From Rhodospirillales bacterium (lineage in GTDB: Bacteria > Pseudomonadota > Alphaproteobacteria > TMED109): 63,693 bases of DNA. Below are positions 43,924-58,671 of this stretch, in pieces. A model generated the notes under the pieces. That model was not told where the DNA came from, made no database searches, and saw only the letters and a list, made by a program, of their open reading frames with translations. The stretch spans positions 1 to 63,693 of the forward strand of contig JAPPED010000010.1 in the NCBI GenBank assembly GCA_028824295.1, in the 5' to 3' direction. Position 1 is the stretch's first letter, and each line of letters opens with the position of its first letter. Made by a program: the position numbers and the translations under genes.

Positions 43924-44259
43924 TCAGTCTGACAAGCGATCGGCTGCAGGATCGGCAAAATTCGTAATCGTGACATCCCCTTGGGGAAATTCGGCGACAA
44001 TATTGAGTTTCCCGCCCATGGCCTCGATATAGGAGCGAAGGTTGGACACGTACATGTCGGTTCTGCGCTCAAGCTTGGCGACAGCAGGTTGTTTGACATT
44101 TAGCGCTTGCCCAATCGCTTGCTGAGTCATGGCGCGTGCCCGGCGGAGTTCATGAAGCGGCATGGCCGCGCGAAGCGCGGCCTTTCTTTCTTCAACACGA
44201 TGCCGACGTTCAGGCGTGAAGTCCCGGGTCAACTCTCGAAAGTTCTTCCGTCCGGTCAT
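43924..44259 (-). CDS. HigA-type XRE antitoxin
   Basis: A 111-residue XRE DNA-binding protein. The helix-turn-helix is at about residues 36-60 (RRARAMTQQAIGQALNVKQP, then AVAKLER), followed by a short segment (DMYVSNLRSYIEAMGGKLNI) and strand VAEFPQGDVTI. It is encoded after the toxin, the HigBA order. Its start overlaps the toxin stop by four bases (ATGA). It probably binds the dyad in the promoter at 44624-44652. Confidence 0.9.
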   Translation of the reverse strand: MTGRKNFRELTRDFTPERRHRVEERKAALRAAMPLHELRRARAMTQQAIGQALNVKQPAVAKLERRTDMYVSNLRSYIEAMGGKLNIVAEFPQGDVTITNFADPAADRLSD

Positions 44260-44618
44260 GGGATCAATCCCTCCCCTTTCAATTCACTCAGGTAGATGTC
44301 GTAGAGACGATCGGCAACAGGTACGTACTGTTTGTAGAAGCGCGCATTTCCTGTTTTGTCTCCGCCGATGAGCAGAATTGCTGTTCGTCTGGGGTCGAGC
44401 GCATAGAAGACCCTAAGAGGTCTTCCGGAGCTCTGGATTCGGAGTTCCCTCATGTGACCGTGGCGGGAGCCCAGGACGCCCGACGAGTACGGAAACGGCA
44501 AGTGGGGTCCGTACTCCATCAGGAGTTCGACGACTGCAGTGATGTCGTTCTGCTCATTGTCAGAGAGACTGCTCCACCAATCGCCGAACTCGTTGGTGAA
44601 TTCGACTTCTTGGGTCAT
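44256..44618 (-). CDS. HigB/RelE-type toxin
   Basis: A 120-residue RelE/ParE-superfamily toxin (Gp49/HigB-like), a ribosome-dependent mRNase by family. EFTNEFGDWWSSLSDNEQND, FPYSSGVLGSRHGHMRELRI and RPLRVFYALDPRRTAILLIGGDK give the strands and basic residues of the active surface. Its ATG is about five bases after the -10 box, so the mRNA should be leaderless or nearly so. It is coupled to HigA. Confidence 0.9.
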   Translation of the reverse strand: MTQEVEFTNEFGDWWSSLSDNEQNDITAVVELLMEYGPHLPFPYSSGVLGSRHGHMRELRIQSSGRPLRVFYALDPRRTAILLIGGDKTGNARFYKQYVPVADRLYDIYLSELKGEGLIP

Positions 44619-51036: not shown

Positions 51037-51351
51037 ATGGTACTTCGCTTGTTTCTGTCGGCTGCGGCAATCACGTTGAGCTTCGAGCTCCTGGCACCCG
51101 CGCCATCCGACGCCTCCTTCGTGCACTCGGTGGGGCGTGACTACATGATCCGTGAATGGGTCGACCAGGAGCTGGATTCCGTTCTCGTCGAGATCACCCC
51201 GATCATGCACGAGGGCAATCCCGCCTACCGGGTGAGTTTCCGGCCACGCTCGGACGCGCCGGATTCCCGGCCGACGGAAATTCTCGTCCGGGCCGATGAC
51301 TTCCGCGACATGAAGCCGGTGCTGGTGCACCCGCGGCAAGACGACGGGTAG
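51037..51351 (+). CDS. Small exported protein of unknown function
   Basis: A 104-residue product from ATG 51037 with a Sec signal (LRLFLSAAAITLSFELLAPAPSDA). The mature 80 residues are charged and beta-rich (SVGRDYMIREWVDQELDSVL, VEITPIMHEGNPAYRVSFRP, TEILVRADDFRDMKPVLVHP); no family is known to me. It precedes the kinase-enolase pair by 35 bases on the same strand and may share its transcript. Confidence 0.6.
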   Translation: MVLRLFLSAAAITLSFELLAPAPSDASFVHSVGRDYMIREWVDQELDSVLVEITPIMHEGNPAYRVSFRPRSDAPDSRPTEILVRADDFRDMKPVLVHPRQDDG

Positions 51352-51386: not shown

Positions 51387-52382
51387 TTGCTGCGGGTCCT
51401 CGCGGCACTTGACCTCGGCCGCGGAGCAGAACCGCTCGAAGTGTCCCCGTTGACCGGGGGCGTATCGTCCGACATCTGGAAAGTGGTGTTTCCCGACCGC
51501 ACCGTCTGTATCAAGCAGGCCCTTGCGAAACTCCGCACCGAGGCGGACTGGTACGCGCCGGTCGGACGCAATGCGGCCGAGGCCGACTGGCTCCGCTGGG
51601 CCGGCCGGGCGGTGCCGGGGTCGGCGCCGGCGCTGCTGGCGGAGGACCGTGGGGCGGGCCTCCTCGTCATGGAGTACCTCGCGCCCGACCGGTACCCGCT
51701 GTGGAAGGCGGAGCTGATGGCCGGCCACGTGGATGCGGCGTTCGCCGCTCGGGTCGGGGAGACGCTGGGGCGCCTGCATGCAGCGGCCGCGGCGGACCGC
51801 GCCGTGCCGGCGGGGTTTCCCAATGCCGCGACGTTCCACGACATCCGCATCGAGCCGTACCTGCTGCATCCGATCGAGCAGAATGGTGATCTCCGTGCTC
51901 CCCTCGAAGCGATCGCCGGTGATCTGGCCGGCCGGGCGCCGACGCTGATCCACGGTGACGCCAGCCCGAAGAACCTGCTGCGGTCGCCCGGGGGCGCGCC
52001 CGTATTCCTCGATGCCGAATGCGCTACCGCCGGTGATCCGGCCTTCGACCTCGCGTTCTGCTTGAATCACCTGCTGCTCAAGGGCCGCCTGTTTCCGAGC
52101 CGCGGGGCGGTGCTGCTCGCCAGCGCGGCCGGGCTGCGCGAGGCCTATCTCCGGCGGGTGGCTTGGGAAGAACCGGCCGCGCTCGAGACGCGTGTGGCGC
52201 GGCTGCTGCCCGGCCTGATGCTCGGTCGCGTCGACGGGCGCTCGCCGGTCGAGTACCTCGATACCGAGCCGCTGCGGGCCCCGGTGCGCGCCTTCGCCCG
52301 CGCGCATCTGGTCCGGCCGCCGGCGACCCTGTCCTCGCTCTTTGCAGACTGGGCCGGTCTCCTGGAGAAGCTCAATGCCTGA
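51387..52382 (+). CDS. Small-molecule kinase of the APH/choline-kinase-like fold
   Basis: A 331-residue phosphotransferase. The nucleotide lobe has PLTGGVSSDIWKVVFPD and Lys43 (CIKQAL); the catalytic loop is HGDASPKNLL at residues 189-198, with Asp191 and Asn196, and the Mg site is the unusual FLDAECATAGDPAFDLAF (Asp209-Glu211). It is not an antibiotic-type enzyme by pattern; the DAECA motif and following CLNHLLLK recall sugar or hydroxy-acid kinases. TTG 51387 is the first acceptable start; no ATG or GTG fits. Its last eight bases overlap the enolase-like gene, so both proteins should be made together. Substrate unknown. Confidence 0.82.
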   Translation: MLRVLAALDLGRGAEPLEVSPLTGGVSSDIWKVVFPDRTVCIKQALAKLRTEADWYAPVGRNAAEADWLRWAGRAVPGSAPALLAEDRGAGLLVMEYLAPDRYPLWKAELMAGHVDAAFAARVGETLGRLHAAAAADRAVPAGFPNAATFHDIRIEPYLLHPIEQNGDLRAPLEAIAGDLAGRAPTLIHGDASPKNLLRSPGGAPVFLDAECATAGDPAFDLAFCLNHLLLKGRLFPSRGAVLLASAAGLREAYLRRVAWEEPAALETRVARLLPGLMLGRVDGRSPVEYLDTEPLRAPVRAFARAHLVRPPATLSSLFADWAGLLEKLNA

Positions 52383-53667
52383 CACGACCATTCGCGGCGT
52401 GCAGGGACGTCGCATCTGGGATTCACGCGGTCATCCGACCGTGGAGGCCGACGTGATCCTGGCGGGTGGCACCAGAGGTCGGGCCGCCGCACCGGCGGGC
52501 GCCAGCCGGGGGGGCGGGGAGGCGATCGATCTTCGCGACGGCGGTGCGGCGCTCGGTGGCCGAGACGTGGCCGGAGCGCTCCGGGCGCTCAATGGACCGG
52601 TGCGCGATGCGCTCTTGGGAGCGGATGCCGCCGACCAGTCGGCCGTAGATCAGATCCTCGCGGAGCTGGGCGGCGAGGGGTTCGCGAAGATCGGCGGCAA
52701 CACCTCGACGGCGGTGTCACTGGCCGTCCTCGACGCTGCCGCCCGAGCCCGTGGGCTCGCGCGCTGGGAGCTGCTGGCGGGCGACAGTGCGCCGCTGCTG
52801 CCGTTACCCGAAATTCAGCTGCTGGGCGGCGGCGCCCATGCCGCACGTGCCCTCGACCTGCAGGACATCATGGTGATGCCGGTCGGCGCGTCCTCGTTTG
52901 CGGAGGCTCTCCGGATCACCGGCGAGACATACCGGGCCGCCGGTCAGCTGCTGGCGGACACCGGGCGCCTTGCGGGCGTGGCGGATGAAGGCGGCTACTG
53001 GCCCGTCTTCGATTCCAATCGGGAGGCGCTCGCGTTCGCCGTCCGGTCCATCGAGGCCGCCGGCCTCCGACCGGGCACCGACATGGCGCTGTCGCTGGAT
53101 ATCGCGGCCAACCAGCTGCATGAAGACGGCCGGTACCGGCTCCGCCTCGAGGACCGGGAGCTGGAGCCCGGCGCCTTCGCAGACGAGCTGCTTGGCTGGT
53201 GCCGGGAGTTCCCCGTCATCTCGATCGAGGATCCGCTGGCGGAAGACGACAGGGAAGGAATGGTCCGGTTCGTGACGGCGGTCGATGGGCGGGCCCAGGT
53301 CGTGGGTGATGATTTCCTGGTGACTGACGCCGCCCGCACGGCCGATGCTGCCCAAGCTCACGCTGCCACGGCACTACTCGTGAAACCCAACCAGGCGGGC
53401 ACGGTTACCCGCGCTAGGTGCGCGCTCGACGCGGCGCGAAGGGCGGGCTGGGGGATCATCGTGTCGGCACGTTCGGGCGAAACCGAGGATGTGTCGGTGA
53501 CCCACCTGGCGGTGGGTTGGCGGGCGGGCCAGATGAAGGTCGGCTCCTTCGCCCGTTCCGAACGCATGGCGAAGTGGAACGAAGCGCTCCGGATCGAGGA
53601 GCGTGCTGGTGCCGATGCCCGCTTCGCTGGTCGCGCCGCCGTGGTGGCGCCCCAATTTGGTGCCTGA
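52375..53667 (+). CDS. Non-canonical enolase-superfamily protein (enolase paralogue)
   Basis: A 430-residue enolase homologue. It keeps the fold (GRRIWDSRGHPTVEADV, EGFAKIGGNTSTAVSLAV, KVGSFARSERMAKWNEALRI) and the metal ligands Asp242, Glu285 and Asp312, Glu205, Lys337 and Lys388. It departs at catalytic points: the SHRSGETED motif is SARSGETED (Ala365 for yeast His373), Asp164 replaces Glu168, and the mobile loop GASTG is GASRGG (residues 42-47). His155 (yeast His159) remains. A simple housekeeping enolase is therefore unlikely; a related acid-sugar or phosphonate-like phosphate ester is more plausible. It overlaps the upstream kinase gene. Confidence 0.85.
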   Translation: MPDTTIRGVQGRRIWDSRGHPTVEADVILAGGTRGRAAAPAGASRGGGEAIDLRDGGAALGGRDVAGALRALNGPVRDALLGADAADQSAVDQILAELGGEGFAKIGGNTSTAVSLAVLDAAARARGLARWELLAGDSAPLLPLPEIQLLGGGAHAARALDLQDIMVMPVGASSFAEALRITGETYRAAGQLLADTGRLAGVADEGGYWPVFDSNREALAFAVRSIEAAGLRPGTDMALSLDIAANQLHEDGRYRLRLEDRELEPGAFADELLGWCREFPVISIEDPLAEDDREGMVRFVTAVDGRAQVVGDDFLVTDAARTADAAQAHAATALLVKPNQAGTVTRARCALDAARRAGWGIIVSARSGETEDVSVTHLAVGWRAGQMKVGSFARSERMAKWNEALRIEERAGADARFAGRAAVVAPQFGA

Positions 53668-55356: not shown

Positions 55357-55616
55357 CGTCAACTCCGTACGTACGATTCACGGTGTCGCGCCAGGAGGGC
55401 AAGGCCGCTCCCGGACGGATCCTGCGGCCGGCAGCAACGTTGGCCGAAATCCTGGCTCGCGCCGATCAACGTAGCGGCACCGCCGTGAGAAGTCGTGGGG
55501 CCGCATGGCCACCGATGCGCATGAAGATGGAGTTTCGCGACGCAGTCCCGCAATACCTAGCGATTCAAACATGCTTTAGGATGACCGGTTCCGCGCGGAT
55601 TGGATTGGAGGCGTCG

Positions 55617-56738
55617 ATGCCGAGGGTGATCAAGTTCGGAATGGCAGTGGCTCTCCTTGCGGGCGGCCTGACTGCCACCAACGCTACTGCCAAGGATTTG
55701 ATCTTCGCCATCGGCTTGCCGCCCATTCACACCTGGTCGAAGACGCTGGCCTACGTCGACGAGCACATCGACGAACGGTCCGGCGGGGCGCTCTCGACGG
55801 AGGTCTTCTACGGGTCGCTCCTTAACCTCAAGCAGGGGCTCAACGGAGTCCGCGATGGACTGGCCGATGCCGCCCTCCTGGTGCCCGGCTATCACCCGGC
55901 GGAGATGCCCCAGGTCAACCTGATTCTCGACCTGGCGATGCTCGGGCAAAACGCCACGGTCCTCTCGGCCGCAACCAGCGAATACATGTTCACCTGCCCG
56001 GAGTGCCTGGCGGAATCCGAGGCCAACGGTTCCGTGTTTCTCGCCATGACCTCGAACGCCCCGTACATGTTGCTCACCACGGAGCCGATGACCACGGTGG
56101 AGTCCCTCAGGGGCAAGAACATCCGCAGCTTCTCGGCGTTCGGGCGGTGGGTCGAGTTCATCGGCGGGATCAAGATGTCACTGTCAGCCAACGACATCTA
56201 CGACGCCCTGAGCCGCGGGACGCTGGACGCGAACCTGCATCCCGCCACCGAGCTCTACAACCTGAACTTCAAGGACGTCGCCAAGTACATCACGCGGCTG
56301 CCGCTTGGCACCTACCACGGCAATCAGTTCAACATGAACATCGACACGTGGCGGAATCTCACAACCGACGAGCGTCGCCTCTTGCTGGACCTGTTCGCCG
56401 AAGCATCGGCTCTGACCACAGTGCAGTTCCAGACGTTCAACGACGACATCCTGAACGGCGGCGGAGCCGCCGACGGGATCCAGGTTCTGGAACCGGCGCC
56501 GGAGCTGGTGGCGGCCACCGAACAGTTCATCGCCGAGGACATGGCCAAGATGGAGGCCATGGCCAGGGACAACTACGGCATCACGGATGCCGGGCCCCGC
56601 ATTGCGCGGTTCACCGTCCTGATCGAGAAGTGGCGCGGACTGCTGGCGGCCATTGACGCGACCGATGTGGACGCGGTGACGGCGCTCTACAAGCGCGAGA
56701 TCTGGGACCGTGTCGATGCCGCCACGCATGGGATGTGA
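55617..56738 (+). CDS. dctP: TRAP transporter substrate-binding protein (DctP family)
   Basis: A 373-residue periplasmic binding protein with a Sec signal (RVIKFGMAVALLAGGLTATNA, cleaved near AKD). It has the DctP fold: GRWVEFIGGIKMSLSANDIY, NIRSFSAF, DALSRGTLDANLHP. The carboxylate-binding Arg is the one in KNIRSF by family analogy. A CPECLAESEANG loop with two cysteines is not usual. ATG 55617 has GGAGG at a good distance; the frame is open upstream without signal. It is followed by DctQ and DctM, then an acyl-CoA ligase. Confidence 0.9.
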   Translation: MPRVIKFGMAVALLAGGLTATNATAKDLIFAIGLPPIHTWSKTLAYVDEHIDERSGGALSTEVFYGSLLNLKQGLNGVRDGLADAALLVPGYHPAEMPQVNLILDLAMLGQNATVLSAATSEYMFTCPECLAESEANGSVFLAMTSNAPYMLLTTEPMTTVESLRGKNIRSFSAFGRWVEFIGGIKMSLSANDIYDALSRGTLDANLHPATELYNLNFKDVAKYITRLPLGTYHGNQFNMNIDTWRNLTTDERRLLLDLFAEASALTTVQFQTFNDDILNGGGAADGIQVLEPAPELVAATEQFIAEDMAKMEAMARDNYGITDAGPRIARFTVLIEKWRGLLAAIDATDVDAVTALYKREIWDRVDAATHGM

Positions 56739-56813
56739 ACGCATCTTGCTAGGCCATTCGGTTTCAGGTGCCTAACGGCGCTCCGATGAATATGGCGCTG
56801 AACTAGGACCGGC

Positions 56814-57359
56814 ATGCATCGCCTGGGGCGCATCCTCGGCCGCTTGACGGACATCCTCGCCGTGATCGGCTGCGTGGCGGTCGTCCTGATGATGCTGCAC
56901 ATCACGCTGGATGTGTTCATGCGGCTGATCGGCCACCCGATCCCGGCCACGGTGACCATCGTGCCGCACTACTACATGCTGCCGATCATCTTCCTGCCGC
57001 TGGCGCTGGCCGAGCGCAACGACGCTCACATCACGGTGGAAGTCTTCGTCCAGCTGCTGCGCCGGCGCTGGCAGCGAGTACTCGCGGTGGTGAGCTGGGT
57101 GGCCTCGGCGGTCGTCTTCAGCCTGCTCTTCTACCAGACCCTTCTCGACGCATTGGAGAAAACGGCGGTCGGCACATTCATGATGGAGGTCGATTGGAAG
57201 ATTCCGATCTGGGCTTCTTACTATTTCCTGCCGGTCGGCTTCGCACTGGTCGTGGTCGTGCTGCTCTACCGGATTGCGGTGACGGTCATGGGGGTGAAGA
57301 GCAGCCTGGGCGAGGTCCAGCACGACGCCTTCAGAGAATCCCACGTCGGCCCGGAATAG
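56814..57359 (+). CDS. dctQ: TRAP transporter small permease (DctQ)
   Basis: A 181-residue membrane protein with four helices (DILAVIGCVAVVLMMLHITL, HYYMLPIIFLPLALAERN, VVSWVASAVVFSLLFYQTLL, YYFLPVGFALVVVVLLYRIA) and the family DVFMRLIGHPIPATV stretch after helix 1. It associates with DctM; the conserved LAERNDAHITVEVF segment is the Q-subunit signature. Begins 76 bases after dctP; its stop abuts the dctM start. Confidence 0.9.
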   Translation: MHRLGRILGRLTDILAVIGCVAVVLMMLHITLDVFMRLIGHPIPATVTIVPHYYMLPIIFLPLALAERNDAHITVEVFVQLLRRRWQRVLAVVSWVASAVVFSLLFYQTLLDALEKTAVGTFMMEVDWKIPIWASYYFLPVGFALVVVVLLYRIAVTVMGVKSSLGEVQHDAFRESHVGPE

Positions 57360-57360
57360 C

Positions 57361-58671
57361 GTGTTCGACCGCACCGAAATCGGACTGATCGGAATCGGCG
57401 TCCTGCTCGTCCTGATCCTGCTGCGGATTCCGGTGGGGATTTCGCTGATCGCGGTGTCGTTCGGCGGGATCTGGGTGCTCGTCGGGCTGAAGCCGGCTTG
57501 GGGGATCCTGACGGCCGTTCCGTTCGACTTCGGGGCCAAGTGGACCCTCACCTCGGTACCCATGTTCCTGCTCATGGGCTTCTGCTGCTACCACGCCGGT
57601 CTCACCCGGGGCCTATTCGAGGCCGCGCGCAAGTGGCTGTCCGCGCTCCCCGGCGGGCTGGCGGTTGCCTCGGTGTTCGGGGCCGCGGGGTTCTCGGCCG
57701 TTACCGGATCCTCCGTCGCCTGTGCCGCCGCGATGGGCCGGATCGCGGTGCCCGAGATGTTGCGGAACCGGTACGATGCCACCCTCGCGACCGGCACCGT
57801 GGCCGTGGCGGGGACCATCGGCGCGCTGATCCCGCCGTCGATCCTGCTCATCCTGTACGGCATCTTCGTGCAGGTGCCGATCTCCAAGCTGTTCCTCGGC
57901 GGCATCGGTGCCGGCCTGCTGACCGTGGCCGCCTACACGCTCGTCATCATCGTCCGGGCCAAGCTACATCCGGAGCTCGCGCCGGCCGTCCGCGAGCGCA
58001 CGTCGCTCGGCGAGAAACTGCTGGCGCTGGCCGATACGTGGCCGATCATTCTCCTGGTCATCGGGGTGTTCGGCGGCCTGTTCGCGGGCGTGTTCACGCC
58101 GACCGAGGCTGGCGCGGTGGGCGCCTTCCTCGCCTTCGTCATCGCCGGCGCGAAAGGCGCGCTGACCTGGGCGACGTCACGGCAGGCGGTTGTCGAAACC
58201 ATTCAGACCACGGCTGCGATCTTCGTCATCGCTATCGGCGCGAACCTGCTGACCCGTTTCCTGGCGCTCTCCGGCGCCTCGCAGTTCCTGTCGCAGATGG
58301 TCATCGATCTCGGCGCCGACACCGTGCTGCTGATGGCCGGTATCGCCGTGATGTTCCTGATCCTCGGGATGTTTCTAGAGCCGCTCGGCGCGATGCTGCT
58401 CACCATCCCGGTGCTGCTGCCGATTCTTCAGGACACCGGGCTCAGCTTGATCTGGTTCGGCGTGGTCCTGACGAAGTTCCTGGAAATCGGGATGATCACG
58501 CCGCCCATTGGGCTTAACGTCTTCGTGATCAAGGGGGTGGTAGGCAATCTCGCCACCACCACGCAGATCTTCAAGGGCATTGTGTACTTCCTGCTGGCCG
58601 ACATCGTAGTGGTCGTGCTGCTCATGATGTTTCCCGACCTAATCCTGTTCTGGCCGAACCTGATCGACTGA
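57361..58671 (+). CDS. dctM: TRAP transporter large permease (DctM)
   Basis: A 436-residue transporter with about 12 helices; DctM drives Na+-coupled uptake. Signatures are SVPMFLLMGFCCYHAGL, GFSAVTGSSVACAAAMGRIA, GTIGALIPPSILLILYGI, TPTEAGAVGAFLAFVI and the conserved ITPPIGLNVFVIKGV near the end. The GTG start is one base after the dctQ stop. Full length. Confidence 0.95.
   Translation: MFDRTEIGLIGIGVLLVLILLRIPVGISLIAVSFGGIWVLVGLKPAWGILTAVPFDFGAKWTLTSVPMFLLMGFCCYHAGLTRGLFEAARKWLSALPGGLAVASVFGAAGFSAVTGSSVACAAAMGRIAVPEMLRNRYDATLATGTVAVAGTIGALIPPSILLILYGIFVQVPISKLFLGGIGAGLLTVAAYTLVIIVRAKLHPELAPAVRERTSLGEKLLALADTWPIILLVIGVFGGLFAGVFTPTEAGAVGAFLAFVIAGAKGALTWATSRQAVVETIQTTAAIFVIAIGANLLTRFLALSGASQFLSQMVIDLGADTVLLMAGIAVMFLILGMFLEPLGAMLLTIPVLLPILQDTGLSLIWFGVVLTKFLEIGMITPPIGLNVFVIKGVVGNLATTTQIFKGIVYFLLADIVVVVLLMMFPDLILFWPNLID

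Follow-up and report, generated by a model that had tools for sequence, protein, structure and literature searches.

Why would a bacterium that already possesses a canonical enolase carry a second, altered one, whose gene overlaps that of a small-molecule kinase? This question is raised by two genes in the window, by which we mean the whole stretch of 63,693 nucleotides from a Rhodospirillales bacterium that was analysed. The kinase, of the APH fold and resembling methylthioribose (MTR) kinases, is encoded at positions 51387 to 52382, and the variant enolase, a protein of 430 amino acids, at positions 52375 to 53667; both genes are on the forward strand, as are all motifs and residues of the pair located below. 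An earlier note on this DNA had reported an overlap of eight bases, and indeed ATGCCTGA belongs to both the end of the kinase gene and the beginning of the enolase gene. The enolase gene has its ribosome-binding site, GGAG (positions 52364 to 52367, 7 bases 5' of the ATG), within the kinase gene, and both the GGAG and the overlap are kept in a near relative. The two reading frames did not arise by chance, since the proteins are 86-95% identical within the genus and the changes are mostly in third positions. The TTG start of the kinase gene at 51387 is uncertain, because the homologues extend for about 10 more residues and the frame is open further upstream.

The assignment of the kinase to the APH fold, made in the earlier note, is upheld by a profile search (Pfam APH, 3.1e-18) and by an AlphaFold model with a mean pLDDT of 93. 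The best VIA matches of this model are MTR kinases (Z of 35-37, rmsd of 2.3-2.5, 304-324 residues aligned, 18-20% identity), which score clearly higher than PsiK of the psilocybin pathway (Z of 32) and LxmK (Z of 25). In an alignment of 28 kinases, the ATP-binding Lys43 (51513 to 51515), the catalytic loop His189-Gly-Asp191 (51951 to 51959), Asn196, Asp209 and Glu211 are invariant, and hence the Lys, HGDxxxxN and DxE motifs are all present. The metal motif FLDAECA, which contains Asp209-Ala-Glu211 (52011 to 52019), had been considered unusual; it turned out to be the ordinary D-x-E of APH kinases. The 5-methylthioribose kinase MtnK, also of the APH fold, is the closest match in both fold and profile and shares the catalytic HGD and D-x-E motifs. 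However, the window kinase obtains only 42.9 bits against the methylthioribose kinase model TIGR01767 (cut-off 275), its gene neighbours are of the sugar-acid type, and no methionine-salvage gene was noted among them; it should not be classed as a methylthioribose kinase. The kinase is a member of an uncharacterised family of APH kinases with more than 100 loci and, to our knowledge, its fold is unlike that of the described glycerate kinase classes.

The second protein is a true enolase in its architecture, with matches to Pfam Enolase_N (113 bits) and Enolase_C (265 bits), and its AlphaFold model (mean pLDDT of 88) has a TM score of 0.95 to the enolases of M. tuberculosis and E. coli. The acid-sugar dehydratases of the MR/MLE group, which belong to the enolase superfamily, resemble it in having a TIM-barrel and, in principle, in Mg-dependent sugar-acid dehydration, but the variant matches MR_MLE_C only under the cut-off, and it has a kinase partner. 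We compared its active site in 112 aligned variants and 31 canonical enolases. Ser44, His155, Gln163, Glu205 (52987 to 52989; yeast Glu211), Asp242, Asp312, Lys337 (53383 to 53385; yeast Lys345, the proton-abstracting lysine of canonical enolase), Arg366, Ser367 and Lys388 (53536 to 53538; yeast Lys396) are kept in all 112 variants, and Glu285 is invariant in an alignment of 33 sequences. Thus, the variant has the metal, phosphate and carboxylate ligands of glycolytic enolase, together with the equivalents of Lys345, Lys396 and Glu211, and the claim that the metal ligands and these three catalytic residues are retained holds throughout the family. On the other hand, three positions differ without exception between the 112 variants and the 31 canonical enolases. 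Asp164 (52864 to 52866) replaces yeast Glu168, Ala203, two residues before Glu205, replaces a glycine, and Ala365 replaces the active-site histidine (yeast His373), so that the canonical SHRSGETED reads SARSGETED (53464 to 53490). Two of these replacements, those at Ala365 and Asp164, had been noticed in the window sequence alone. Many further positions switch in more than 90% of the variants, among them Leu to Trp15, Ala to Trp209, Leu to Trp275, Thr to Trp382 and Tyr to Trp401. The GASRGG loop, by contrast, had been taken for a special mark and is not one: its Arg position is R in 46, T in 51 and M in 13 of the 112 variants. When placed in a tree together with the 31 canonical enolases, the variants are monophyletic, with a support of 0.997.

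In the M. tuberculosis enzyme, the alpha proton goes to the lysine and the C3 hydroxyl is removed by Glu204; Glu163 (at the position of Asp164) contacts the carboxylate, and binding of phosphoenolpyruvate (PEP) raises the pKa of both Glu163 and Glu204 (PMC10619443). Based on these roles, the changes in the variant surround Glu205 and the leaving group, and not the phosphate. They can mean that there is more room at C3, or that an ionised Glu205 is able to act as a base, and the sequence leaves both possibilities.

The variant is not the glycolytic enolase of its host. A search of the window genome with Enolase_C returned two genes, the one in the window and a canonical SHRSGETED gene on contig 1 (G000:C1:150764-151609), located beside pyrG/kdsA/tpiA-like genes, and thus the normal eno whose presence elsewhere in the genome had been anticipated does exist. 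Nearly all of the 38 other genomes containing the kinase also have an additional canonical enolase; G255, which is 63% complete, has only the variant, and G292 has only enolase fragments. Together with the Ala and Asp present in 112 of 112 variants, the separate canonical gene speaks against classing the variant as a glycolytic enolase; it is an extra genomic copy next to a kinase. It nevertheless scores 393 bits against the NCBIfam model TIGR01060 for 'phosphopyruvate hydratase', exceeding the cut-off of 300, and this equivalog match is why automatic annotation calls it eno. The annotated plasmid copies beside the kinase bear the name 'phosphopyruvate hydratase', and they are probably misnamed.

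How widely is the pair conserved? When the window enolase was used as the query against public genomes, 80 loci with 53-94% identity were obtained from Alpha- and Betaproteobacteria, Streptomyces and others; in nearly all of them a kinase that is 38-95% identical adjoins an enolase with the motif SARSGE[T/S]ED. Plasmid loci add Rhodococcus, Paracoccus, Methylobacterium, Rhizobium, Roseibium and Haladaptatus. The pair is therefore kept across dozens of genera, as the earlier note had predicted, including Betaproteobacteria, Actinobacteria and haloarchaea, and it occurs in many bacteria from soil and water or associated with plants. The prediction that this version of the motif accompanies the kinase was also met. 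In a sample of 385 Alphaproteobacteria genomes, the kinase (E <= 1e-15) is present in 39 and the DNA motif (S/T)ARSGE(S/T)ED in 33, and every one of these 33 genomes also contains the kinase (hypergeometric probability 6e-42, or 1e-31 at the genus level, not corrected for kinship). The two genes are within 300 bp of each other in 80 of the 98 loci holding both, and in two genomes (G080 and G298) they still co-occur on different contigs. In three genomes (G004, G320 and G341), the kinase is accompanied by a canonical enolase alone, and no variant enolase is present. Their kinases (loci L161, L162 and L163) are 44-47% identical to that of the window, and in G341 the kinase gene is followed by a 2-hydroxyacid dehydrogenase gene.

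The neighbouring genes were called by codon score, longest-ORF calling having given mostly shadow ORFs in this GC-rich DNA. Within 6.5 kb of the pair, 43 of 108 loci have a D-2-hydroxyacid dehydrogenase of the glyoxylate/hydroxypyruvate reductase kind, 26 have a FAH-fold hydrolase and 11 a specific SDR; LacI regulators and transporters of the CUT1, CUT2, TRAP, TTT or branched-chain-type ABC kinds are found as well. The closest match of the FAH proteins of the sugar-type clusters is '2,4-didehydro-3-deoxy-L-rhamnonate hydrolase', over the full length and with 338-362 bits (cut-off 500), and an SDR in Paracoccus resembles D-xylose 1-dehydrogenase. Two operons are particularly complete: in L108 the genes for the kinase, the enolase, FAH, SDR, an IlvD-type dehydratase and another SDR make up a full set of the non-phosphorylative sugar pathway known as Route III plus the pair, and in L200 the two genes of the pair are lined up with those for FAH, SDR and a sugar-acid dehydratase of the IlvD type. 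L050 and L201 combine the pair with a UxaA-type dehydratase, and L055 has the same gene clusters as L050. No dehydratase is found nearby in the sugar-type clusters L114, L117, L177 and L179, which hold a sugar transporter, a sugar dehydrogenase-like SDR, an SDR and mostly FAH. An L-threonate dehydrogenase scoring above its cut-off adjoins the pair in L051. Other front ends are very different: an HpcH/HpaI aldolase and MR/MLE enzymes adjoin the pair in Haladaptatus, and clusters of Rhizobium, Paraburkholderia, Streptomyces and Rhodococcus contain an extradiol-dioxygenase-like VOC protein, a cupin, an alcohol dehydrogenase, an FMN reductase or a carboxymuconolactone-decarboxylase-like protein. 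In Rhizobium (L056, L058, L065, L068, L072 and L116), the genes for the 2-hydroxyacid dehydrogenase and the kinase are immediately preceded by a complete PEP carboxylase gene. We considered whether its product could be an altered enol-phosphate hydrolase; its HPTE and GRGG motifs are intact and canonical. A sulfolactate-type elimination, for which the dehydrogenase and UxaA-like neighbours were considered, was rejected, because the other neighbours are of the sugar type and not the sulfonate type.

Two further kinds of surroundings were observed. In L197 (2534-6113), genes resembling those for sucrose phosphorylase, glucosyl-3-phosphoglycerate synthase and mannosyl-3-phosphoglycerate phosphatase adjoin the kinase-enolase-FAH-SDR genes, which may point to glucosylglycerate and thereby to glycerate. 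In eight betaproteobacterial loci (L035, L036, L040, L052, L053, L042, L081 and L088), a gene for GlpK (glycerol kinase) or a GlpD-like gene is present beside or near the pair, often with genes for an EamA transporter and a thioesterase-like protein.

The window pair itself has no Route-III gene beside it. On contig 23 of the same genome (locus L191, 7698-12233), a UxaA-type dehydratase gene is divergent from genes for FAH, a GhrB-like 2-hydroxyacid dehydrogenase and SDR, and this FAH scores 425 bits against the L-rhamnonate-type hydrolase; it is an inference that the window pair is fed by these genes. The exported protein encoded at 51037 had been proposed as a possible member of the unit. 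We do not include it, since it adjoins the pair only within the genus (cluster 60). The pair often stands without a downstream gene, and no downstream partner was counted in the window either: the TRAP transporter (55383-58671) and acyl-CoA ligase genes found there are co-linear only in relatives of the genus, and a PIN-domain gene lies in between. Elsewhere in the window, at 43924-44618 on the reverse strand, two overlapping small genes have, judged by eye only, the look of a RelE/HigB-type toxin and an XRE-type antitoxin.

What reaction, then, does the pair catalyse? It is very likely a kinase-plus-enolase-type dehydration step of some kind. A two-step path, in which a small hydroxy acid is phosphorylated and then dehydrated, had been suggested from the window alone, and it remains the best class of explanation, well supported by the strict co-occurrence (33/33) and by the canonical enolase that is also present, the biochemistry being inferred. 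We envisage that the pair could act as a two-enzyme exit module for sugar-acid catabolism, in which the kinase would phosphorylate a 2,3-dihydroxy acid at its C2 hydroxyl and the altered enolase would remove water to yield an enol phosphate. As for the substrate, we tentatively favour L-glycerate, converted via 2-phospho-L-glycerate into PEP, a proposal in which substrate, stereochemistry and activity are all inferred and which we would not put at even odds. The L-glycerate would come from L-configured hexonic acids that are cleaved by the dehydratase, SDR dehydrogenase and FAH-fold hydrolase of Route III into pyruvate and a C3 acid. The described Route-III enzymes yield pyruvate and glycolate or lactate (PMC6336799, PMC11199699); since the products are pyruvate and a hydroxy acid, a hexonate would give glycerate, and we infer on chemical grounds that this three-carbon acid is the only Route-III product usable by an enolase. 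D-glycerate would require only a normal enolase, whereas L-hexonates would give L-glycerate. Both D-glycerate and D-2-phosphoglycerate are served by housekeeping enzymes, and a dedicated enolase is therefore needed only for a substrate that the canonical one cannot use. It is in line with such a source that the H. huttiense Route-III dehydrogenase accepts L-2-keto-3-deoxygalactonate (L-KDGal), and that a UxaA-type L-galactonate dehydratase has been proposed by Watanabe and colleagues for an unidentified L-galactose pathway. Mechanistically, the lost His373 and the shortened Glu168 are both neighbours of Glu211, and their change may convert this residue (Glu205 in the variant) from a proton donor into an acceptor working on the opposite face; Lys337 would then be the putative donor. 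If so, the pair might represent an enantio-complementary end of glycolysis, in which an L-glycerate 2-kinase of the APH fold, representing a new class of glycerate kinases, is joined by an opposite-face enolase making PEP from 2-phospho-L-glycerate. It would be spread over Bacteria and Archaea under the name 'eno', and we put this broader proposal forward with more reserve still.

Several observations support L-glycerate as the substrate. L108 and L200 hold the full Route-III set besides the pair, and the pair therefore most likely handles the leftover acid. That one conserved pair stands behind front ends so unlike each other fits an exit step for a single small acid that they have in common, and the PEP carboxylase gene adjoining the dehydrogenase and kinase genes in Rhizobium counts in favour as well. 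Other observations weigh against it: the kinases of G004, G320 and G341 have no variant enolase, known glycerate kinases phosphorylate L-glycerate at 13-34% of the D rate, and the catechol-dioxygenase-like clusters do not obviously yield L-glycerate. Furthermore, the fully conserved phosphate ligands imply, on a simple reading, the same C2 configuration as in D-2-phosphoglycerate, and in L114, L117, L177 and L179, with no dehydratase nearby, dehydration could be carried out by the pair itself.

The latter possibility leads to the main rival, in which the kinase phosphorylates a larger (2R)-2,3-dihydroxy acid (a tetronate, pentonate or hexonate) at the C2 hydroxyl and the enolase forms the enol phosphate of a 2-keto-3-deoxy acid. 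The C3 pocket would be widened by the His373Ala and Glu168Asp changes, the pair would replace the usual aldonate dehydratase, and SDR and FAH would act later. This would explain why every invariant change lies around the leaving C3 hydroxyl and Glu211, with none at the phosphate site, and it fits both the four clusters without a dehydratase and the L-threonate dehydrogenase in L051. However, IlvD- or UxaA-type dehydratases are found in the same operon in L108, L200, L050 and L201, and because of these operons we demoted this explanation from favourite to rival. In addition, there is no recurrent gene whose product could remove the enol phosphate, and the pair often lacks a downstream gene altogether, as in the window. 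We consider it unlikely, although it deserves to be kept in mind.

It is also conceivable that the pair consists of a D-glycerate 2-kinase of a new fold and an isozyme enolase acting on D-2-phosphoglycerate. The TIGR01060 match well over its cut-off, the frequently adjoining dehydrogenase of the glyoxylate/hydroxypyruvate reductase kind and the retained Mg, phosphate and lysine ligands would agree with this, but a canonical enolase is already present, leaving no reason for strict pairing with an altered one, and His373 and Glu168, invariant in 31 of 31 canonical enolases, never occur in the variant, making this explanation improbable. Kinase and phospho-lyase pairs have precedent in other families, and the loss of His373 and Glu168 around the leaving hydroxyl could also be understood if the kinase phosphorylated the C3 hydroxyl, or the acid carried another leaving group, and the enolase-type lyase eliminated phosphate or that other group rather than water, since such an elimination needs no general acid and therefore no His373. 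Against this, the phosphate ligands Ser44, Arg366 and Ser367 are in the canonical 2-phosphate place in 112 of 112 variants and Glu205 is kept too, and we regard it as quite improbable. Finally, with one active-site residue lost, the enolase might have only a regulatory or structural role and the neighbouring kinase an unrelated function. This is hard to reconcile with the invariance of all metal and other catalytic residues and with a co-occurrence that persists even where the genes are unlinked, and we give it very little credence.

Returning to L-glycerate, the chemistry proposed for the pair, C2 phosphorylation followed by dehydration to PEP, is the same as that of the glycerate 2-kinase and enolase in the non-phosphorylative Entner-Doudoroff route (PMC2063504). 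The pair differs in having a dedicated, altered enolase and, as proposed, an L rather than a D substrate. Similarly, the SDR, the FAH-fold hydrolase and the IlvD- or UxaA-type dehydratase of Route III adjoin the pair, but the published routes end in pyruvate and glycolate or lactate, and no kinase-enolase pair appears in the portions of text that we searched (PMC6336799, PMC11199699). The earlier note knew of no described pathway with this pair, and in the literature that we searched for it we likewise found no paper or published pathway; it is apparently a widespread metabolic module that has remained undescribed. Few enzymes are as conserved or as thoroughly studied as enolase. If our proposal is true, a widespread altered paralogue with its own kinase implies that a central-metabolic reaction is missing from the description of many genomes, with errors in metabolic models as a result. 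It would also provide L-hexose and L-hexonate pathways with a final step, no dedicated route having been described for their C3 product, and constitute a natural experiment on changing the catalysis or stereochemistry of enolase by a few residues.

A more distant relative of the pair was observed on a plasmid of Enterobacter chuandaensis (L118, 7205-17838). Here, a more divergent enolase homologue, annotated as 'hypothetical protein' and with AGRSIDSED in place of SHRSGETED, is encoded divergently from a kinase homologue with 36% identity. Genes for a 2-hydroxyacid dehydrogenase, an aminotransferase, an iron-containing redox enzyme, U32 and M14 peptidase-like proteins and an MFS exporter are also present, and the locus looks like a biosynthetic cluster employing the same chemistry as the pair.
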